A stretch of 19,074 bases of DNA from an uncultured Clostridia bacterium (GTDB lineage Bacteria; Bacillota; Clostridia; Oscillospirales; Ruminococcaceae): contig CAMEPN010000005.1 in assembly GCA_945931735.1 (NCBI GenBank), forward strand, positions 1 through 19,074, written 5' to 3'. Position 1 is the stretch's first letter. Each line of letters begins with the position of its first letter. Of this stretch, positions 4,615-14,771 are shown in pieces. The notes beneath the pieces are model-generated. The model searched no databases. It saw only the letters and a program-made list of their open reading frames with translations, and was not told the DNA's origin. The translations under genes were made by a program, and so were the position numbers.

Positions 4615-4643
4615 ATTTGGGGGCGTAAGCGCCTTACACTGCG

Positions 4644-5037
4644 CGGCGGATTATCATGCGGAGGGCGTGATTGGGAAACAAATTAACCCCACGGAACGAC
4701 GCGGGTAAAGGCTTGACTTGGGCGGGATTGACGGGCTTTGTGCGGCGGATTGTCATAAAGCAGGCGTGCTCGTGGAATAAATAAACCCCACGGGACGATA
4801 CGGGTAAAAGCTTGGCTTGTGCGAGAATGGCGGACTTTGCTCGGCGGATTTTCATGCGGCAGGCGTGAACGAGAGCAAAAAGCTCCATGGAACGGCGCAG
4901 GGGAAATGCTTGACTTGGGCGAAAACGGCGGACTTTAGGCGGCAGATTGTCATGCGGCAGACGTGCTCGTGTAACAAATTAACCCCATGGAACAGCACAG
5001 GAAAGAGTTTGAGTGAGATGTGACGACGAACACTGCG
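4644..5037. repeat. Four tandem copies of a 98-99 bp repeat
   Basis: Four adjoining units start at 4644, 4743, 4842 and 4940 (lengths 99, 99, 98, 98) and each begins CGGCGGATT or CGGCAGATT. Shared internal blocks are TCATGCGGCAGGCGTG, AAATTAACCCCACGGAAC, GGCTTGACTTGGGCG and GGCGGACTTT. Copies are clearly related but diverged. The string CACTGCGCGGCGG stands just before the first unit (about 4637) and again at the end of the fourth (about 5031), and a fifth unit starts and then breaks off. Reading frames across the units exist on both strands but shift at the 98-bp units and lack ribosome binding sites, so I regard the array as non-coding. It lies between popT and the gdhA promoter. Confidence 0.85.
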
Positions 5038-6919: not shown

Positions 6920-7081
6920 ATGAAACCCGACACTAAAAATTCCGAATACAAGCGCGGCAAGAACGATGAAGTCAGGCTTCGCTCCCCTCTTCACCCCGAC
7001 GACAAAAAGGGCGGCAAGGGTGTTAAGGCAAGCAAGGACTTCAATAAAAACTGCGATTTCAACGTAAACGGCAAGAAATAA
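6920..7081 (+). CDS. Small basic hypothetical protein, 53 aa
   Basis: I do not recognise this ORF. It starts with ATG, GAGG lies seven bases upstream, and it ends in TAA just before a strong terminator. The product is rich in Lys, Asn, Asp and Gly, with no hydrophobic segment; it begins MKPDTKNSEYKRGKNDEV and ends DFNKNCDFNVNGKK. It is probably disordered and basic, and could bind nucleic acid or ribosomes, but that is a guess. Codon choice (AAG, GGC, GAC, AAC) resembles gdhA, which supports real translation. No own promoter is visible, so it would depend on read-through past the gdhA terminator. Its position inside a gdhA-terminator/terminator frame is the main argument for a gene. Confidence 0.6.
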   Translation: MKPDTKNSEYKRGKNDEVRLRSPLHPDDKKGGKGVKASKDFNKNCDFNVNGKK

Positions 7082-7084
7082 AAT

Positions 7085-7115
7085 AAGGCGGAGCACCGAG
7101 AGTGCCCCGCCTTTT
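7085..7115. terminator. Bidirectional terminator between convergent genes
   Basis: A 12-bp stem AAGGCGGAGCAC / GTGCCCCGCCTT with one A-C mismatch and a 5-base loop is followed by T on the plus strand (TTTTC) and, on the minus strand, by ATTTTATTTC. It serves the plus-strand small ORF and the minus-strand NrdD-like gene that ends at 7123. Confidence 0.85.
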
Positions 7116-7122
7116 CGTTATA

Positions 7123-7395
7123 TCACATCATCTCATGCTTCACGCGGTCGTGCTCCTCGCAGCGCTTCGCGTTGTTGAAGCGGTCGAGCGTACCAACAAG
7201 ATAACCCGTAATTCGGCGGATACGCTGGAACGGCTGGTCCGAGAAATGATATGCGACGTTGATATACTCGCCGTCGACATCAAGATCTATCGCCGTGAGG
7301 CATTTGTCCGCAAACCTGCTCTTAGCGCTCTCGACGTAATAATTTATCTCCTCGCCGGAGATATCGCCGCCCGATACATTAACATCAATAACCAT
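7123..7395 (-). CDS. Stand-alone NrdD C-terminal (glycyl-radical tail)-like protein, 90 aa
   Basis: Residues 58-87 (RIRRITGYLVGTLDRFNNAK, then RCEEHDRVKH) match the C-terminal signature of anaerobic ribonucleoside-triphosphate reductase NrdD: RR-x-x-GYL, then R-x-FN-x-x-K, E-E, and RVKH at the very end. Gly64 takes the place of the glycyl-radical residue. The first 57 residues form a short alpha/beta part. The four zinc-binding cysteines that precede the radical loop in full NrdD are absent, and there is no catalytic barrel. A GTG frame opens at 7413, but the ATG at 7395 is chosen because GGAGG at 7405-7409 overlaps that GTG and fits the ATG. Its promoter holds an NrdR box, independent support for a ribonucleotide reductase role. 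It might repair or tune NrdD as YfiD does for pyruvate formate-lyase; this is inference. Confidence 0.75.
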   Translation of the reverse strand: MVIDVNVSGGDISGEEINYYVESAKSRFADKCLTAIDLDVDGEYINVAYHFSDQPFQRIRRITGYLVGTLDRFNNAKRCEEHDRVKHEMM

Positions 7396-7434
7396 AATAC
7401 ATTTTCCTCCCACTAAATATAAGATTATGGTATT

Positions 7435-7463
7435 ATTTTATCACAATATATTGTGTCTGTCAA
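7435..7463 (-). promoter_or_regulatory. Promoter of the NrdD-like gene
   Basis: Minus strand: perfect -35 TTGACA (7458-7463), 17-bp spacer, -10 TAAAAT (7435-7440). A second TTGACA stands at 7465-7470. Transcription should start about 30-35 bases before the ATG at 7395. Confidence 0.85.
7441..7456. promoter_or_regulatory. NrdR box (operator) within the promoter spacer
   Basis: The 16-mer read on the minus strand, ACACAATATATTGTGA, agrees with the published NrdR-box consensus acaCwAtATaTwGtgt at every position but the last. Its 14-bp core CACAATATATTGTG is a perfect palindrome and fills the space between -35 and -10, so a bound repressor would block RNA polymerase. NrdR senses dATP/ATP and represses ribonucleotide reductase operons. 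The usual second box is not clear: only a half-match (ATATTGT) lies 33 bp upstream. Confidence 0.82.
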
Positions 7464-7579: not shown

Positions 7580-8470
7580 TCAACCCTTTACCGCGCCGAG
7601 CGCAACGCCCTGTACAATGTGCTTGGACAGGAAGATGTACACGATAACAACAGGGATAATTGCAAGCAGGATCATCATGTAAACCTCACCGAGGTCGCCT
7701 GCTCTGGAGTTAAGCTCAGAGCGGAGCAGCGAGATCATGATAGGCAGCGTTGCCTTTTCCTTGGTGTTAATGATAAGGGCAGGAGTAAAGAAGTTGTTCC
7801 ACGACGCTACGAACGCGAAGATAAGCTGTACCGCGAGGGCAGGCTTAAGCATAGGAAGCGCGATCGTATTGAATGTCAGGAACTCATTCGAGCCGTCAAC
7901 GCGCGCCGCTTCAACTACCTCGAGGGGCAGCGAGCTTTCGATGTATTGCTTCATATAGAAGAATACGGAGGGCGCAGCGATCGCAGGAATGATCAGCGGC
8001 CAGTATGTATCGGAAAGACCGATCTGGTTTACAAGCTGTACAAAACCAACGGCAGAAACCTGCGTCGGGATCATCATGACGATCAGAATGAAGTTGAAAG
8101 CGAACTTCTTTCCCTTGAAGTCATAAACATGGATGCCGTAAGCCGTCATAGCGGAGAAGTAGGTCGTCAGAATAGCCGCCGACGCCGCGATGATAAAGCT
8201 GTTCAGCATACCTCTCGGGATAGAAACGAGAGAAGTATCGTTCCATGCCTTGACGAAGTTGTTGATAAAGTTGCCGTGAGGAATAAGGGTAAAGCCTGCC
8301 TGAAGCTCCGCGTTAGAACGCGTTGCGTTGATTATCAGCAGATAGAAGGAGAAGAGCGAAAGCACGGTAACAAATGCAAGGAAGATGTAAGAGATTACTC
8401 TCGATGCCATCATCTTGCCCTTATCGCTCTTGGTCTTCTGACCCGCGGGCGTAAATGTGTTAGCGTTCAT
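7580..8470 (-). CDS. Sugar ABC transporter permease, MalG-like (CUT1)
   Basis: This is an inner-membrane channel subunit of a carbohydrate uptake (CUT1) ABC importer. The 296-residue product has about six membrane segments and the cytoplasmic EAA loop EAARVDGSNEFLTFNTIALP (about 187-206 from this start) that docks the ATPase. It ends GVALGAVKG, typical of MalG-type permeases. The frame also opens at a GTG (8476) that overlaps the stop of the MalF-like gene, but the ATG at 8470 has a better-placed GGGGTG and follows that stop by two bases, so translation is coupled. The substrate cannot be read from the sequence. Confidence 0.93.
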   Translation of the reverse strand: MNANTFTPAGQKTKSDKGKMMASRVISYIFLAFVTVLSLFSFYLLIINATRSNAELQAGFTLIPHGNFINNFVKAWNDTSLVSIPRGMLNSFIIAASAAILTTYFSAMTAYGIHVYDFKGKKFAFNFILIVMMIPTQVSAVGFVQLVNQIGLSDTYWPLIIPAIAAPSVFFYMKQYIESSLPLEVVEAARVDGSNEFLTFNTIALPMLKPALAVQLIFAFVASWNNFFTPALIINTKEKATLPIMISLLRSELNSRAGDLGEVYMMILLAIIPVVIVYIFLSKHIVQGVALGAVKG

Positions 8471-8472
8471 TC

Positions 8473-9438
8473 TCACTTCACCCCTTTCGCAGCAAGCTTC
8501 TTAGCCTTTTTCTTGCCGGAATCGTCGCCCTTGACCATGGTCTTGTAAACAAACATGCTGAGGATACCCGTGATGATGAATACGACAACCGAGATAGCAC
8601 CCGACATACCGTAGTTCTTGGACGTACTCAGATAGTTGTTCAGATACATGATAAGCGTCATAGTCGATCTGTTCGGCTTACCGATACCAGCTGTGATGAT
8701 CTGCGGAACATCGAACATTTGCAGACCGCCTATGAGGGACGTGATGATAACGTAAACCAGAATAGGCATCAGCAGCGGCAGCGTTATCTTGAAGAATACC
8801 TGAACGGAGTTAGCACCGTCGATGGACGCAGCCTCGAACAGGCTCTGGTCGATACCCATGATACCAGCCATCAGCAGGATCGTGGTATTACCGAACCACA
8901 TCAGGAAGTTAATGAACGCGATTATTCCTCGCGCAGTCCATACGTTTCCGAAGAAGTCGACCGTTTCACCGCCCATAGCGTTGATAAGCTGATTTACAGG
9001 ACCAACGTTGGAGAACAGTGTGAAGAACAGCATAGCGAAAGCGGAAGCCATTACGAGGTTAGGCATATAAATGACCGTTTTGAAGAACTGCTGTCCCTTT
9101 ATCTTCAGTCTTGCGCTTGTGAAAATTATCGCAAGCAGGAGCGAGAATATAAGCTGAGGGATAGCGCCAAGCAGCCACATTATCATGGTGTTAGCGGTAT
9201 AATCCAGTATCAGGATATTTCCCGAAGAGTTCGGAGTGAAAAGCTTTATGTAGTTTTCAAAACCGACAAAGTTGGGTCCGATCTGCGTCAGACCGTCTCT
9301 GTAATTCTCGAAGAAGCTGTTATAAAACGTCGAGAACAGGGGGATCAGCGAACAGAAGATATAAACAACAAAGAACGGTATGATGAAGATATATCCCCAT
9401 TTTGAATAGCTGACGGATTTTCGCTTTTGTGTACTCAT
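8473..9438 (-). CDS. Sugar ABC transporter permease, MalF-like (CUT1)
   Basis: This is the partner permease of the MalG-like subunit, 321 residues. The N-terminus is cytoplasmic (MSTQKRKSVSYSKWGYIFII), followed by about six membrane spans. The EAA loop EAASIDGANSVQVFFKITLP is clear, and a Lys-rich tail (DDSGKKKAKKLAAKGVK) ends the protein. The start has GAGAGGT seven bases upstream. It lies 124 bp after the lipoprotein gene, with a stem-loop in the gap, and abuts the next permease. No ATPase gene is in the cluster, as is common for CUT1 systems of Gram-positive bacteria that share a multi-sugar ATPase (MsmK/MsiK type) encoded elsewhere. Confidence 0.94.
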   Translation of the reverse strand: MSTQKRKSVSYSKWGYIFIIPFFVVYIFCSLIPLFSTFYNSFFENYRDGLTQIGPNFVGFENYIKLFTPNSSGNILILDYTANTMIMWLLGAIPQLIFSLLLAIIFTSARLKIKGQQFFKTVIYMPNLVMASAFAMLFFTLFSNVGPVNQLINAMGGETVDFFGNVWTARGIIAFINFLMWFGNTTILLMAGIMGIDQSLFEAASIDGANSVQVFFKITLPLLMPILVYVIITSLIGGLQMFDVPQIITAGIGKPNRSTMTLIMYLNNYLSTSKNYGMSGAISVVVFIITGILSMFVYKTMVKGDDSGKKKAKKLAAKGVK

Positions 9439-9474
9439 TCCAACGACCTCTCATCATTATTTGCATTTGCCTAA

Positions 9475-9510
9475 TAAAAAGAGGTGAAGCGAGTAAACTG
9501 CCTCACCTCT
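9475..9510 (-). terminator. Stem-loop between lipoprotein and permease genes (attenuating terminator)
   Basis: On the minus strand AGAGGTGA (9503-9510) pairs with TCACCTCT (9480-9487) across a 15-base loop, followed by TTTTTATTA. It looks like a leaky terminator or a 3' stabiliser that gives more binding protein than permease, a common arrangement in such operons. Confidence 0.75.
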
Positions 9511-9562
9511 CTTAAAGGCTAATGGTTAATTACCTGTATGCGCCTGTTAGACCTCAATTAAC

Positions 9563-11026
9563 TCAAGGAGTAACGATTGCGGGGTACTTCTCGTTTACAT
9601 ACTGGTAGAAGTTCTTGTATGCATCTTCCTCGGAGATATTGCCCTTGAAGTAATCCAGGAATACGTCAGGCAGCTTCTCGTTGAGCAGCTGGTCATACTG
9701 AGTCTTGTTCTCGAACTTGATATTCTTAGCAAGCTCTACATAAATAGCTGTATCGTTCTGACCGCCCAGGAATGCGTTACCAAATGTAGGATCATCAGCG
9801 TACTTCTGGTTAACTGCCATGTTGTTGGTGAACTGGCCTTCGTTTTCGATCAGCTTGGAGCAGATGTCCTCGTTAGCTGTGAATGCGTTCATGATATCAG
9901 CAACCATCTCGGGGTTATCTGTGCCGGTAGCTGCGAGCAGCCATGTGCCGCCCCAGAAATAAGCCTGAGGACCCTGGCAGATAGCCCAGTCGCCGGAGCA
10001 GCCCTTTTCGGGATCCTGTGCATTGCTCATGGAGAAGTTGTAGTACCAAGCAGGACCGAAGAAGCACATTACCTTACCATCCTTGTACATCTCAGCGGTC
10101 TTCTGGTCATCCCAAACGCCGCAGGGGAGAGTGTATTCCTTATCAAGGAAGTCCTTAGCCTGAGCTATGTACTGCTTGATAGCGTCGTCGATAACAAGGT
10201 TGTTATCAGCGTCTACCCAAGCGGAAGTAGTGTTGTTGGAGAATGTACGGAATGTTTCAACGTAAGAGCCGGTCATGTAGTAGCCGCTGTCCTTAGCCTT
10301 CTGAGCAACCTCAGTGAACTTATCCCAGTTGTCAAGCTGTGCCTGAACCTCAGCGGGATCGTCTGTGCCGAGAACTTCCTTAGCGATGGAGCGTCTGTAA
10401 ATCAGAGCAGCAGGGCAGCACTGGAAAGATACGCCCTTGATAGCGCCGTTGTTGTCGGAAGCAGCGGATACAGTGTACTGATACTCGGTGTCGAGCTGCT
10501 TAACGCCGATAGTGGAAACATCCAGTGTGTAATCGGAGTTGGTGTACTTAACGATGTAGTCAGCCTCTGCAAGGAACATATCTACCTTGTCATCAGCTGC
10601 TGCGGAAGCCTGGTTCAGCAGAGCCTCGTCCAGCTTATCCTGGTATACGCCGTCATCGGAAGGATTGATGATCCAGTTAACGGTTACGCCCTCGGGAACG
10701 GTGTAGTACTTCTCGAAGAAGCCTTTGAACTCTTCGTTCCAAGCGTAGATGTTGAATACCTTACCTTCGGACTCGGACAGTGTGATACCTGTGCCTGCCT
10801 TGGAAATGTCGGTGGTGTCGTCAGCAGCAGCGGAGCTATCATCTGCAACGGAGCTGTCGTCTGCAACGGAGCTGTCGTCTGCAACGGAGCTGTTGTCAGC
10901 TACGGAGCTGTTGTCAGCGGGTGCAGAAGAATTTGTGTTGCTTGTGCTGGTTGTATTGCTGGAGCAGCCAGCAAAAGAGAGAACCGTAGCAGATGCAACC
11001 AGAGCTGCTAATAATCTTTTCTTCAT
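9563..11026 (-). CDS. Sugar-binding lipoprotein of the ABC transporter (CUT1)
   Basis: This 487-residue extracellular solute-binding protein begins with a lipoprotein signal (MKKRLLAALVASATVLSFAG, Cys21 lipidated). A Ser/Asp/Ala-rich linker (about 22-70) precedes the bilobal binding domain. Features of the CUT1 family are KVFNIYAWNEEFKGFFEKYY near the domain start, the GKVMCFFGPAWYY segment, and WGGTWLLAATGTDNPEMVAD. Many aromatic residues suit sugar stacking. The protein would sit on the outer face of the membrane and feed the two permeases. The start ATG has GGGAGG ten bases upstream. The gene has a long regulated upstream region. The substrate is unknown and no glycosidase or regulator gene is adjacent. 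Confidence 0.95.
   Translation of the reverse strand: MKKRLLAALVASATVLSFAGCSSNTTSTSNTNSSAPADNSSVADNSSVADDSSVADDSSVADDSSAAADDTTDISKAGTGITLSESEGKVFNIYAWNEEFKGFFEKYYTVPEGVTVNWIINPSDDGVYQDKLDEALLNQASAAADDKVDMFLAEADYIVKYTNSDYTLDVSTIGVKQLDTEYQYTVSAASDNNGAIKGVSFQCCPAALIYRRSIAKEVLGTDDPAEVQAQLDNWDKFTEVAQKAKDSGYYMTGSYVETFRTFSNNTTSAWVDADNNLVIDDAIKQYIAQAKDFLDKEYTLPCGVWDDQKTAEMYKDGKVMCFFGPAWYYNFSMSNAQDPEKGCSGDWAICQGPQAYFWGGTWLLAATGTDNPEMVADIMNAFTANEDICSKLIENEGQFTNNMAVNQKYADDPTFGNAFLGGQNDTAIYVELAKNIKFENKTQYDQLLNEKLPDVFLDYFKGNISEEDAYKNFYQYVNEKYPAIVTP
10832..10921 (-). repeat. Five 18-bp tandem repeats encoding the lipoprotein linker
   Basis: Five contiguous 18-bp units (starts 10832, 10850, 10868, 10886, 10904) encode hexapeptides of the form D[DN]SSVA just after the lipidated cysteine. 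They form a flexible acidic tether between membrane anchor and sugar-binding domain. Copy number probably varies by slippage. Confidence 0.9.
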
Positions 11027-11057
11027 AGGTTTTTTCCTCCCAAAATGGTTTTCACTC

Positions 11058-11157
11058 GTCCCTCTGTCGGGACAGGTAAATGAAATAAGGATCGGAGCAA
11101 TATCGGTAATTCATATTCCGTTGCCGGCTGTCTTATTACCGTCGTCCGATTTCATTT
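11058..11157 (-). promoter_or_regulatory. Highly structured 5' leader of the lipoprotein mRNA
   Basis: Nested inverted repeats fill the leader: ATTTCATTT (11149-11157) with AAATGAAAT (11078-11086), TCCGAT (11145-11150) with ATCGGA (11091-11096), and ATTACCG (11135-11141) with CGGTAAT (11104-11110). After these come two mutually exclusive short hairpins, GTCCC/GGGAC and CTGTC/GACAG, at 11058-11075. The outer arm starts almost at the predicted transcription start. I do not recognise a known riboswitch class. Confidence 0.55.
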
Positions 11158-11160
11158 GTA

Positions 11161-11189
11161 AGTTTATCATAAATCATTTTAATTTTCAA
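11161..11189 (-). promoter_or_regulatory. Promoter of the sugar transporter operon
   Basis: Minus strand: TTGAAA (11184-11189), 17-bp spacer, TAAACT (11161-11166). This is a moderate sigma-A promoter, and the predicted start is about 127 bases before the lipoprotein ATG. Confidence 0.65.
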
Positions 11190-11226
11190 CCCCTTTTTTT
11201 GAACTTTTTTCACGACAAAAAGCGGA

Positions 11227-11246
11227 AAACGATTTCAAAATCGTTT
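11227..11246. promoter_or_regulatory. 20-bp palindrome upstream of the transporter promoter
   Basis: AAACGATTTCAAAATCGTTT has two perfect 9-bp arms around a 2-bp centre. It lies about 38 bp upstream of the -35 box, a position that suits an activator. Weaker inverted repeats follow further up: ATGTAA/TTACAT at 11302-11317 and GTTAC/GTAAC at 11390-11405. Confidence 0.55.
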
Positions 11247-11446
11247 GATTGTTCAATTTGACAACTCATTTACCTAATAACCTAATATTTTACCTTAAAT
11301 CATGTAAATGATTACATCGCTGTATTAAGCCAAAAATCCGGACTACCATTGACCCGAAAAATAGTTTTTAATTATTATTAACCTCTATTGTTACCGTTTT
11401 GTAACATTTGGATTGGTGAAAGTGACGAAAAATTTATGTCAGCGTT

Positions 11447-11462
11447 TTGTAAACGATATCAC
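11447..11462. promoter_or_regulatory. cre-like site (CcpA/LacI-family operator candidate)
   Basis: TTGTAAACGATATCA (plus strand) fits the consensus WTGNAANCGNWNNCW at every fixed position. Such sites bind CcpA in Firmicutes, and a carbon-controlled sugar importer is a sensible target. The site lies about 290 bp upstream of the predicted start, farther than usual. The block CGTTTTGTAA inside it recurs at 11395-11404. Confidence 0.45.
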
Positions 11463-11584
11463 TTATATTTCATATATTAAATGTAGACGCCCGACGCTTT
11501 TTCACACCATTTTAATATTCATTTCATATGGTAAATTTCAGACAGAAATGTCCGATTTTTGTTAATAATAACTGTTTAGTCCAA

Positions 11585-11623
11585 CAAAAAATCCCCGCCC
11601 TTTCGGACGGGGACAGTTTTTTT
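11585..11623. terminator. Terminator of the biotin-dependent carboxyltransferase operon
   Basis: On the minus strand a GC-rich 9-bp stem (TCCCCGTCC / GGGCGGGGA with one G-U pair and a GAAA tetraloop) is followed by TTTTTTG, right after the OadA-like stop. A T7 run at 11617-11623 on the plus strand makes it potentially bidirectional. Confidence 0.92.
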
Positions 11624-11624
11624 A

Positions 11625-13028
11625 TCATACGGGGTGAACCTTGTTTGCCTTGTCTGCGTGAACAGCGTCGATGCCGACCTGTCTGTCGCGGCGCTTCTCG
11701 AAGAACTTCGGAGCTACCTTCGGGAACATCGCATATGTCAGAACGTCCTCAACGGAAGCGTCCTCAACATACTGCTTTACCTCTTCCTTCATGGTGTCGA
11801 ACTCAGGCTTGAGGTTGTCCGCGGGACGGCAGGTTATAGGCTCCTCGCCGCCGAGGATCTTCTTCTGGAACTCGGGGTCGATAGCAACGGGCGTCTTGCC
11901 GTATTCGCCCTTGACAAGTCCCTTGAACTCCTTGGTGACAGTCTTGTAGCGCTCGCCTGTGATAACGTTGAACACAGCCTGCGTGCCGACGATCTGAGAT
12001 GTGGGCGTAACGAGAGGCGGGAAGCCGCTGTCCTTGCGCACTCTCGGAACTTCCCGCAATACCTCCTCGAGCTGGTCAGCCTTGCCTGCCTGCTTAAGCT
12101 GAGAAAGCAGGTTGGACAGCATTCCGCCCGGAACCTGATATATCAGCGCGTTAGTATTGGTTGCAAGCATAGAGGGGTCGAGCAGACCGCTGTCGATATA
12201 CTTCTTGCGCAGCTTCATGAAATAATCTCTTACTTCGTTGAGCTTTACAAGGTCAAGACCGGTGTCGTATTCGGTGCCTTGGAAGGTTGCAACGATAGAC
12301 TCGGTGGGAGCGTGAGATGTACCCAGAGCGAGCGGGGACATTGCCGTATCAACAGCGTCAACGCCCGCCTCAACAGCCTTAAGTATGCACATGGAAGCAA
12401 GACCCGACGTATAGTGAGTGTGGAGCTGAACGGGGATCTTGACCGCGCTCTTGATATCCTTAACGAGAGTTTCAGCCTCGTAAGGAGTGAGCAGCGCCGC
12501 CATATCCTTGATGCAGATAGAGTCCGCGCCCGCGCTCTCGACCTGCTTTGCATAGTTCATGTAATATTCGTGCGTGAATACCTCGCCGAGGGTATAGGAG
12601 ATAGCCACCTGAGCGTGACCCTGCTCCTTCTTTGCCGCCTTGATAGCGGTTTCGAGGTTGCGGATATCGTTAAGCGCGTCGAAAATACGGATTATGTCGA
12701 TACCGTTCGCGATAGACTTCTGTACGAAATATTCAACGAGGTCGTCCGCATAGTGGCGGTAGCCCAGCATATTCTGACCTCTGAACAGCATCTGGAGCTT
12801 TGTATTGGGCATTTCCTTTCTCAGGATACGGAGCCTTTCCCACGGGTCCTCGTCGAGGAAGCGAATGCAGGAATCGAACGTTGCGCCGCCCCAGCACTCT
12901 GCGGAATAAAATCCGATCTTATCCATCGTGGAAAGTATGGGACGCATATCGTCCATGGACATTCTTGTAGCGAGCAGCGACTGGTGCGCGTCACGAAGAA
13001 CGGTTTCGGTTATCTTCAGTTTTGCCAT
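11625..13028 (-). CDS. oadA: OadA/5S-type carboxyltransferase subunit (pyruvate/oxaloacetate)
   Basis: This is the DRE-TIM barrel subunit that moves a carboxyl group between biotin and pyruvate/oxaloacetate. The 467 residues correspond to the OadA body without a fused biotin domain, or to the 5S subunit of transcarboxylase. Visible are RDAHQSLLATRM (Asp13 metal ligand), the EAD-equivalent ECWGGATFD, the carbamylated lysine in ICIKD (Lys174), the metal histidines QLHTHYTSG (His203, His205), and the conserved carboxylase domain with VPGGMLSNL and the ending PEFDTMKEEVKQY to DRQVGIDAVHADKANKVHPV. The start has AAGGAG upstream. It lies 15 bp after the biotin carrier gene and ends the operon. Direction depends on partners: transcarboxylase with the MmdA-like subunit, or decarboxylase if a membrane subunit is supplied from elsewhere. 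Confidence 0.93.
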   Translation of the reverse strand: MAKLKITETVLRDAHQSLLATRMSMDDMRPILSTMDKIGFYSAECWGGATFDSCIRFLDEDPWERLRILRKEMPNTKLQMLFRGQNMLGYRHYADDLVEYFVQKSIANGIDIIRIFDALNDIRNLETAIKAAKKEQGHAQVAISYTLGEVFTHEYYMNYAKQVESAGADSICIKDMAALLTPYEAETLVKDIKSAVKIPVQLHTHYTSGLASMCILKAVEAGVDAVDTAMSPLALGTSHAPTESIVATFQGTEYDTGLDLVKLNEVRDYFMKLRKKYIDSGLLDPSMLATNTNALIYQVPGGMLSNLLSQLKQAGKADQLEEVLREVPRVRKDSGFPPLVTPTSQIVGTQAVFNVITGERYKTVTKEFKGLVKGEYGKTPVAIDPEFQKKILGGEEPITCRPADNLKPEFDTMKEEVKQYVEDASVEDVLTYAMFPKVAPKFFEKRRDRQVGIDAVHADKANKVHPV

Positions 13029-13043
13029 TTTCGGTTCTCCTTA

Positions 13044-13406
13044 TCAAGCGATAGTAACAACAGCGGCGCCTGTGTCTACGGAGTCGCCCTTGTTTACGCA
13101 TACAGCGGCAACTACGCCGTCCCTGTCGCATACGATGTCGTTTTCCATCTTCATAGCCTCGAGGACTGCAACAACAGTGCCGTTGGACACCTTGTCGCCT
13201 ACCTTTACCTTGACATCAATTACGGTGCCGGGCATGGGAGCGGCGATAGGTGTGCCGCCTGCCGCGGGGGCAGCAGCCTTAGGAGCGGGCTTGGGAGCGG
13301 CAGCCTTGGGAGCTGCGGCGGTCACAGCGGGAGCGGAGGAGCCGTCCGCCTCGTCAACAGTTACATCATAAGCAGTGCCGTTTACTGTGATAGTATATCT
13401 TTTCAT
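13044..13406 (-). CDS. Biotin carboxyl carrier protein
   Basis: This 120-residue carrier has three parts: a short beta N-terminus (MKRYTITVNGTAYDVTVDEA), an Ala/Pro/Lys hinge (about 22-50), and a lipoyl/biotinyl domain with the biotin site EAMKMEN (Lys86). The hinge lets the biotin arm swing between two active sites. Its size and shape match the 1.3S transcarboxylase subunit and the gamma/delta carrier subunits of decarboxylases (MmdC/GcdC). It sits between the two carboxyltransferase genes (39 bp and 15 bp gaps), so all three are one transcript. Biotin ligase must come from elsewhere. Confidence 0.96.
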   Translation of the reverse strand: MKRYTITVNGTAYDVTVDEADGSSAPAVTAAAPKAAAPKPAPKAAAPAAGGTPIAAPMPGTVIDVKVKVGDKVSNGTVVAVLEAMKMENDIVCDRDGVVAAVCVNKGDSVDTGAAVVTIA

Positions 13407-13445
13407 TTTAAGTACCTCTCATTATTTATTTCCGGAAATCTCTTA

Positions 13446-14771
13446 TCAGAATGCGAAGTTCGCGTGCTTCCTTGCGGGAGAAGCAACTCTCTTGCCCGCG
13501 CAAAGCTCAACGGCGGACGCCAGCGTGTCCTTTGTGTCCTCGGCAGCGATAACGCCGTCGACCATGCCGAGAGCTGCCGCCTCGAACGGAGAGGTGGATA
13601 TCTCTTCGCCCATGAATACCTTGCAAGCCTCGGGGGACATGGGAGCTATCGCAGCGTTTTCCCATGCGTAGGTGAGGTCCGCGCTGTCGAAAGCTGCGTA
13701 GGCTGCGCCGAACGCGCTGCCCGTGATTATGTTCACCTTAGCGGTAGTTGCGGAAGCGTAAACCTGAGCAAGCTTAGCGCAGTCGCGGACGGAGCCCGCA
13801 AGCTCCGCCTCGGAGGAGCCGACAAAGCCCTCTGTATTTATCAGCGTTACGACAGGAATGGAGAATATGTCTGCGAGCTGAACGAAGCGAGCTATCTTTG
13901 CGCAGTCTGCGGCGGTCAGCTTTGCAGCCTTGTCTGTCGCAACGAATGCAACGGTAGCCCAGTTTACGCTTGCGAGAGCGGTGTATGCCGCCGTGCCGAA
14001 CTCCGCGCCAAGCTCAACGACGCTGTTGTTGTCAGCGAGAGCCTTTACGAGGTCTGCGCCCTTCATGCCCGCAGCAGCCGCAGACTCGTTTACGGTGAAG
14101 TCGTCGTTGCCCGCGAGGGAGATATTGTTCGCGGGGAGTATAGCGACCAGCTTCTTTGCCTTTGCGACAGCCTCCGCGTCGTCCTTTGCGAGAATGCCGC
14201 ATACGCCCGACTTTGCCGCATTAGCCGCCGTGCCTGCGCCCTCGAGCTTGCCGTCGGGGGTGTTAAAGGGAGCGGTAAGGAACAGCTCAGCCTTTTCGGT
14301 CATTATTGTAATATCCGCCATGGAAGCGAGCATTGCCGCGCAGCCTGCGCACACGCCGCATACCACTGCGATCTGCGGAACTACGCCCGAGATCTCCGCG
14401 GAAGCCTTCATGATATCGCCGTAAGCGGAAAGAACAGCCATTCCCTCGTTGATATCGCCGCCCTTGGAGTCATAGATACCTACGACGGGAGCGCCTACCT
14501 TTGCCGCGAGAGCGAAGAGCTTCTTGATCTTGAGAGCCGCGCTCTTGTTCACCGCGCCGCCCTTAACGCTGACGTCCTGCGCGAATGCGTAGGCAGTGGC
14601 TCCCATTACGGTGCCGTAGCCTGCGACAACCGAGCTTTGTTCGCCGTCGGCAGACAGAAACTTGTCCAGCTCTCTGAAGCTGTCCTCGTCGAAGAGAGCA
14701 GTCAGTCTTTTTCTTGCTTCGCTGTCTGAAACAGTCTGTTCCATCTCAGCCAGAGTCTTTGTAAATGCCAT
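13446..14771 (-). CDS. Acyl-CoA carboxyltransferase subunit, MmdA/12S-like, short form
   Basis: This crotonase-fold carboxyltransferase has two half-domains. The N-half shows VVAGYGTVMGATAYAFAQDV, DSKGGDINEG (101-110) and CGVCAGCAAM. The C-half shows IPVVTLINTEGFVGSS, ITGSAFGAAY, YAWENAAIAPMSPEA, and the family ending KRVASPARKHANFAF. At 441 residues it is about 70 shorter than usual MmdA/PccB proteins (about 510-520). The long N-terminal helix is reduced, and the helical stretch before the last domain is cut out. The canonical DSGGARIQEG and PCAGGAVY motifs are altered, so acyl-CoA preference (methylmalonyl, malonyl, glutaconyl) is open. It starts the operon with GGAGGAGAC before the ATG. 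The protein is unusually Ala-rich. Confidence 0.88.
   Translation of the reverse strand: MAFTKTLAEMEQTVSDSEARKRLTALFDEDSFRELDKFLSADGEQSSVVAGYGTVMGATAYAFAQDVSVKGGAVNKSAALKIKKLFALAAKVGAPVVGIYDSKGGDINEGMAVLSAYGDIMKASAEISGVVPQIAVVCGVCAGCAAMLASMADITIMTEKAELFLTAPFNTPDGKLEGAGTAANAAKSGVCGILAKDDAEAVAKAKKLVAILPANNISLAGNDDFTVNESAAAAGMKGADLVKALADNNSVVELGAEFGTAAYTALASVNWATVAFVATDKAAKLTAADCAKIARFVQLADIFSIPVVTLINTEGFVGSSEAELAGSVRDCAKLAQVYASATTAKVNIITGSAFGAAYAAFDSADLTYAWENAAIAPMSPEACKVFMGEEISTSPFEAAALGMVDGVIAAEDTKDTLASAVELCAGKRVASPARKHANFAF

Follow-up and report, generated by a model that had tools for sequence, protein, structure and literature searches.

A separately encoded NrdD-type glycyl-radical protein as a probable trans-acting part of class III ribonucleotide reductase

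Class III ribonucleotide reductases, as described in the published accounts consulted here, carry the radical glycine on the catalytic chain. The DNA analyzed here, a stretch of 19,074 nucleotides from an uncultured Clostridia bacterium of the Ruminococcaceae (the window), encodes what appears to be the same glycine in a small gene of its own. This raises the question of whether the product is a spare part for the reductase NrdD, as the initial annotation had proposed, or a working subunit of the enzyme.

The gene for this stand-alone glycyl-radical protein was assigned from its open reading frame, a Pfam match and a homologue search. It comprises 90 codons on the minus strand at positions 7123 to 7395 (ATG at 7395, stop at 7123; 90 amino acids), with a GGAGG ribosome site approximately 10 nucleotides 5′ of the ATG and a start methionine that is common to most homologues among the matches listed. 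Consensus scans identified a sigma-70-type promoter, TTGACA-17-TAAAAT (11/12, TG before the -10), at positions 7435 to 7463 and a terminator-like 13-pair hairpin followed by ATTTTATTTC at positions 7085 to 7113, both on the minus strand. Protein homologue searching found 7768 of 7777 candidates to be homologous at E ≤ 1e-3; the 120 of these that were listed were mostly 87-100 amino acids long and all contained RITGYL, so the gene is not a chance reading frame. The gene was previously held to have its own promoter and terminator and not to be the decayed 3′ end of a larger gene, and this is supported. An overlapping plus-strand frame of 104 amino acids (positions 7102 to 7416) was rejected as a shadow of the small gene, as it had no Pfam match and the homologues belong to the minus strand. 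A second plus-strand frame, lysine-rich and 53 codons long (positions 6920 to 7081), also lacked a Pfam match; it and the small gene are convergent, with the hairpin between them.

Analysis of the protein revealed an NrdD-type glycyl-radical tail at residues 54-87 (positions 7135 to 7236, minus strand), which matched positions 532-562 of the 562 in the Pfam NRDD profile (PF13597) with significance and above its curated cut-off (E 6.8e-7; 28.7 bits, cut-off 26.2). Residues 30-88 matched the NCBIfam model PRK14704 (E 2.4e-12, 46.2 bits), for which the full-length cut-off of 736 is far higher, and other NCBIfam NrdD models matched the same end of the protein, again far under their full-length cut-offs. 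The best match among solved structures was NrdD of P. copri (8p23), to which residues 45-87 aligned without gaps over 43 residues (E 7.8e-7). By hand count, Gly64 (codon at positions 7204 to 7206, minus strand) aligned with 8p23 chain position 715, or residue 711 after a 4-residue offset, and Gly711 is given as the radical glycine of P. copri NrdD in the sections of PMC11226230 available to us. This presumed radical glycine was retained in 120/120 listed homologues and in 41/41 copies from the window's genus. The PFL-type glycine radical domain (PF01228) was not matched at E ≤ 1; NRDD was matched instead. No catalytic barrel is present in the 90 residues, where the NRDD match is limited to positions 532-562, and no CxxC pair was found, so the protein is without the Zn-binding cysteines that precede the radical loop. 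The NrdD radical tail that the initial annotation had read in this frame, with its glycine and without barrel or zinc cysteines, was confirmed and can now be placed on the minus strand.

The remainder of the protein, residues 1-53 (positions 7237 to 7395, minus strand), is predicted by AlphaFold2 to form a beta-alpha-beta-beta domain. Block pLDDT values were 82-87 over residues 1-50 (fair confidence) and 53-67 in the tail (low); low values would be expected of a loop that folds only inside the barrel of a partner. A search for relatives of the N-terminal fold gave no convincing match. The N-terminal sequence pattern recurs in a second family, f38, and the named relatives further down the match list of one f38 small protein (G366) were from Selenomonas, Anaerovibrio and Pectinatus. 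Four of the small proteins (P0056, P0174, P0177 and P0225) are database entries under the name of the whole enzyme.

The closest known parallels are GrcA/YfiD and the phage T4 protein Y06I, which are likewise small stand-alone glycyl-radical domains with an extra N-terminal part and, in the available sections of PMC8683613, the only validated spare parts, with others for further glycyl radical enzymes considered possible. GrcA/YfiD supplies the radical glycine in trans to oxygen-cleaved pyruvate formate-lyase according to the same sections (PMC8683613), and here too the radical domain is encoded apart from its enzyme and trans supply may be envisaged. The tail of the present protein, however, is of the NrdD type, and whereas pyruvate formate-lyase keeps its own glycine until damaged, many of the NrdD partners described below have none. 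The radical loop and tail are those of the NrdD C-terminal domain (43 ungapped residues with 8p23; PF13597 positions 532-562), but in NrdD this tail comes after the Zn site within a single chain (PMC11226230, available sections) whereas here it has a separate gene, its own N-terminal domain and no CxxC. As in split RNR genes, one reductase chain would be spread over two genes. The class II NrdJa/NrdJb pair is an example of such a split. The available sections of PMC3653736 describe introns, inteins or homing endonucleases that interrupt RNR genes, phage nrdD among them. Those splits are chain breaks, many of them linked to mobile elements, whereas the piece separated here is the radical carrier itself; unlike them, it comes with an N-terminal domain of its own and can occur alongside an intact NrdD, and the NrdD tail has been lost several times.

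The window's own genome, which is 70% complete, has an NrdR gene and a partial type-2 NrdD cut at a contig edge (L001, G000:C298), with no type-1 NrdD in the assembly and no NrdG above the cut-off. In its relatives the type-2 enzyme bears a tail, and several of them have a separate nrdG next to its gene. Both nrdD and nrdG were found across the genus, but in the window's genome only the partial type-2 nrdD was detected. The nearest relative by small protein is G121 (88% identical), with which the window's protein groups on a starred branch, and G121 also has a complete type-1 NrdD; the type-1 enzyme missing from the window's genome is therefore likely to be of the complete kind. As to whether the partner lacks the glycine, the type-1 NrdD is absent from this incomplete assembly and that of G121 keeps it. 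A spare part is our best guess for the window's lineage, inferred with the type-1 gene absent from the assembly. The ruvB locus carries type-1 nrdD in G069 and G133 and is without it in G106, G104 and G099; in the window's genome the contig breaks off about 1 kb past ruvB.

We examined 98 genomes of the window's family, its own included, with the NRDD profile. Many of the NrdD proteins ended short of the radical glycine, at position 530-547 of the profile, and direct reading of these ends showed that they stop after the Zn site. Combining by hand the profile search and a search for stand-alone tails, tail-less type-1 NrdD was present in 34/98 genomes, and a stand-alone radical domain was present in 34/34 of these. 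Two architectures were seen. In 27 genomes the domain was short and adjacent, being a radical tail without the N-terminal domain, encoded by a short frame of 49-107 open codons a few hundred bases at most behind nrdD; L034 and L047 are examples with a tail-only frame directly behind the tail-less nrdD. In 7 there was no tail near NrdD, and a long protein of 88-90 amino acids, the type found in the window, was encoded elsewhere in the genome. Type-1 NrdD was exclusively fused to its tail in 32 genomes, 11 of which also had the long protein and a twelfth (G020) a copy of it without the glycine. No match to the type-1 tail was obtained in 31/98 genomes, by a search that is blind to stand-alone tails of other NrdD types, and the remaining genome is that of the window, with the small gene and no type-1 NrdD in the assembly. 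The G020 copy (L297, G020:C105, ~656-907; RSTDYLV) and a second divergent paralogue (L298, G015:C40, ~10149-10406; RSADYLV) carry Asp where the radical glycine would be and are possible radical-dead regulators; G015 also carries two normal copies of the small protein.

Within the window's genus (43 genomes), type-1 NrdD was tail-less in 30, fused in 8 (the call for G103 rests on a partial gene) and not found in 5, including the window's own. All 30 tail-less ends were read and stop just before the glycine. One of them (L331, G123:C30) ends FDRFRRAKS, unlike the other genus rows, and the small protein of this genome groups with those of fused genomes; perhaps this is a separate tail loss within the genus. 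The small protein was identified in 41/43 genomes, comprising 28/30 tail-less, 8/8 fused and 5/5 with no type-1 NrdD. The two misses, G127 and G113, were read by hand and have the syntenic neighbours at contig ends where the small gene is expected, so the gene is missing there because its place falls at the contig ends. The spare-part claim fits the window's lineage, where G121 has a complete type-1 NrdD, but not the sister clade and other families, where NrdD has lost the radical tail; there the small protein cannot be just a spare and is most likely the obligate radical subunit.

Dependence on the small protein was assessed from the other reductases in these genomes. Type-2 NrdD, the tail of which differs from that of type-1 (RMNGYLSYSRV.. 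/ RMNGYLSYSRVKG..), was present in 31/43 genus genomes, in three only as fragments. It accompanied tail-less NrdD in 19/30 genomes (in G098 and G113 only as fragments), and the argument that the small protein is needed is weaker there because a second NrdD type is present. No second NrdD was found in the other 11 tail-less genomes, and no class I/II reductase was found in any of the 43 by a search that was positive in 11/14 controls. The small protein was present in 10 of these 11 genomes as the only radical-glycine domain detected; among the 10, G133 is rated 100% complete and G069 99%. NrdG was over the cut-off in 39/43 genus genomes and in 10/11 of the tail-less genomes with a single NrdD (missing in G130), and an NrdR gene was found in 33/43 and 6/11, respectively. 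As judged from these genomes, the protein is most probably an obligate radical subunit in many relatives whose NrdD has dropped its tail.

A partner other than type-1 NrdD, either the type-2 enzyme or another glycyl radical enzyme, would account for G106 (99% complete), where the small gene occurs with type-2 NrdD only, and for the window's genome, where only a partial type-2 gene is seen. In G104 (92% complete) the small gene is present and NrdD was not found. The tail of the small protein, however, has the type-1 sequence and not the type-2 sequence (RMNGYLSYSRVKG..), the only genome in the 98-genome survey with the stand-alone form and no type-1 NrdD is the window's own, and the gene order described below places the small gene with tail-less type-1 nrdD. 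We regard such a partner as extremely unlikely.

We also considered whether the tail-less enzymes are alive. The core of the G069 tail-less NrdD aligned with P. copri NrdD up to a point before Gly711 (hand count), has an ATP-cone and keeps counterparts of Cys416 (the radical cysteine) and Cys171 as well as the NxN flap; the catalytic residues were checked in this genome only. For pairs with dS between 0.1 and 1.5, median dN/dS was 0.044 for tail-less NrdD (47 pairs of 91) and 0.05 for the small gene (9 pairs of 55). The new C-terminus of NrdD, R[IV]ERPxxF, was kept in 28/30 genus rows. The tail-less NrdD of G366 was 100% identical to Megamonas hypermegale entries on contigs of 2.23 and 2.35 Mb, and on account of their size the tail-less form is unlikely to be an artefact of draft assembly. 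Type-2 NrdD in 19 of the 30 tail-less genus genomes would fit the idea that tail-less NrdD is dead, with the small protein a leftover and the cells relying on another reductase or on salvage. Against it stand the 11 genomes with no second NrdD detected, the lack of any class I/II match in the genus, the low dN/dS of both genes, the conserved new C-terminus and the occurrence of the form on chromosome-sized contigs, and we give this idea almost no credence.

The arrangement extends to other families. Among 398 genomes surveyed across the phylum, 14 had a match to the long protein at the threshold of E 1e-20, two from the window's family and twelve from f38 and f64. Of these twelve, 11 have tail-less type-1 NrdD and one (G529) the fused form; in G271 there is also a further NrdD, complete and of a different kind. 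The order tail-less nrdD, small gene, nrdG was found in G366, G296, G429 and G465, and it recurs at L158 in an uncultured Clostridia genome, where the intergenic gaps measure about 10 bases; the arrangement is an apparent operon as judged from the gene order. At the other 79 of 80 named loci a genuine nrd gene was not detected within 3 kb, a candidate at L168 proving to be a false match. In one f64 genome (L304, G201:C83) NrdD ends ..FERIHRITE, exactly at the place of the radical glycine, and G529, its relative in the same family, is complete.

The order of events was read from a tree of the type-1 NrdD core (83 of 86 rows, with three short duplicates left out), built by a quick search, without bootstrap and unrooted. 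Absence of the tail required 13 changes on this tree, and the state of a tail-less enzyme with a remote small protein required 4, a number that the starred branches also force. The 23 genus tail-less rows in the tree formed one group; the nearest row outside it was G121, which has both the complete NrdD and the small protein, and other rows with fused NrdD and the small protein lay further out. Tail loss is thus nested inside lineages that have both, and our reading of this tree is that the small protein may have come first and the enzyme tail been lost later.

The promoter of the small gene also suggested how it may be controlled. A site resembling an NrdR box, ACACAATATATTGTGA (positions 7441 to 7456, minus strand), lies between the -35 and -10 and matches 15/16 of the NrdR consensus; a second, weaker site (12/16 to the consensus; positions 7410 to 7425, minus strand) lies 31 bp from the first, giving a 15-bp spacer. 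Spacers of 14-17 bp bound NrdR well under the spacer rule in the available sections of PMC12051234. The mark of an NrdR regulon, paired boxes with a 15-16 bp spacer before the gene, was found in the window in the form of these putative sites. At a threshold of 13/16, which was picked after viewing the histogram, a box preceded 55/98 long small genes over all loci compared with 17/962 upstreams of other frames at the same loci, a control that includes shadow ORFs; 6/490 shuffled upstreams also reached 13/16. Upstream of the genus small genes, 38/41 had a box of at least 13/16, with a partner site of at least 10/16 at -33 in 26/41 and at -31 in 17/41, offsets that correspond to spacers of 17 and 15 bp. 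Boxes of at least 13/16 were also found at type-1 nrdD in 23/29 genus loci, often with the same sequence as that of the small gene; one of the 30 loci had too little upstream sequence to be scored. The remote small gene and nrdD appear to be jointly controlled, as NrdR-like boxes precede both. None of the 19 short nrdD-adjacent forms reached 13/16. No NrdR was found in 10/43 genomes, yet most small genes there have the box.

These data bear on two further explanations. A regulator or decoy that lowers reductase activity by competing against the NrdD tail, either for the barrel or for NrdG, would be compatible with the NrdR-like operator, with a shared tail sequence that could compete, and with the two paralogues that have lost the glycine and kept the rest. 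A decoy would not need the glycine, yet it is kept in every listed homologue and every genus copy, and for the sole reductase of 10 genomes no further radical glycine was detected; we consider a decoy very unlikely. That the protein is purely a GrcA/YfiD-type spare in every lineage, replacing only tails cut by oxygen at the radical glycine, is also unlikely, if less remote. The small protein does lie beside a complete type-1 NrdD in all 8 fused genus genomes (G103 being partial) and in 11/32 such family genomes, the window groups with fused genomes, and the stretch before the glycine is repeated, as in YfiD (PMC8683613, available sections). However, type-1 NrdD without a tail, in 30/43 genus and 34/98 family genomes, leaves nothing to repair, the nrdD-small-nrdG order occurs in another family, and the upstream sites resemble NrdR boxes and not a known oxygen signal.

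Taken together, the sequence comparisons point to a real and conserved glycyl-radical carrier for class III ribonucleotide reductase, transcribed on its own, GrcA-like in principle and with an NrdD tail. We consider it quite probable that the small protein acts in trans as the glycyl-radical domain of type-1 NrdD, the class III form with an ATP-cone, being a spare where the enzyme has kept its tail and obligate where the tail has been lost. This reading is based on homology, the conserved glycine, domain architecture, co-occurrence, gene order and operator-like sites, from which we infer binding, radical installation, catalysis in trans and repression by NrdR. The last 34 residues would enter the barrel of NrdD in the manner of its native tail, NrdG would install the radical on Gly64, and each turnover would begin with transfer of the radical from there to the NrdD active-site cysteine. 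It is probably through its N-terminal beta-alpha-beta-beta domain that the protein docks on NrdD and keeps the radical loop shielded before binding, and NrdR would repress the small gene along with nrdD. Beside an NrdD with its own tail, the likely state in the window's genome, the protein would be a spare part or a boosting subunit; in several lineages NrdD would later have lost its tail, leaving the small protein as the only radical carrier. We also think it likely that a three-part class III reductase, made up of an already truncated NrdD core, a glycyl-radical subunit on its own chain and NrdG, arose several times once the spare part had made the tail dispensable.

If the trans-acting reading is true, delivery of glycyl radicals in trans would be the normal working mode of an essential enzyme, and the question raised in the available sections of PMC8683613, whether spare parts exist beyond pyruvate formate-lyase, would be answered. 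In the three-part form, the part that oxygen destroys would be a 10-kDa unit, synthesized apart and open to replacement. The data also suggest how a repair part could turn into an obligate subunit, explain small proteins that are named in databases as the whole enzyme, and provide a warning that an NrdD that stops at the Zn site is not necessarily a fragment.

Several other features of the window were recorded. ABC sugar transporter-like and carboxylase cluster-like genes, named by eye, lie near the small gene at positions 7580-14771; similar neighbours were seen in several genus genomes (L230, L231, L236), and in these and in the window the small gene has no adjoining nrd genes. A 24-bp tandem repeat of 16.8 copies (positions 451-854) lies within a 405-codon minus-strand frame (positions 2-1216) with weak Pfam matches under the cut-off. 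An imperfect 99-bp repeat of 3.6 copies (positions 4640-4993) sits between genes resembling those for an undecaprenyl-phosphate translocase and glutamate dehydrogenase.
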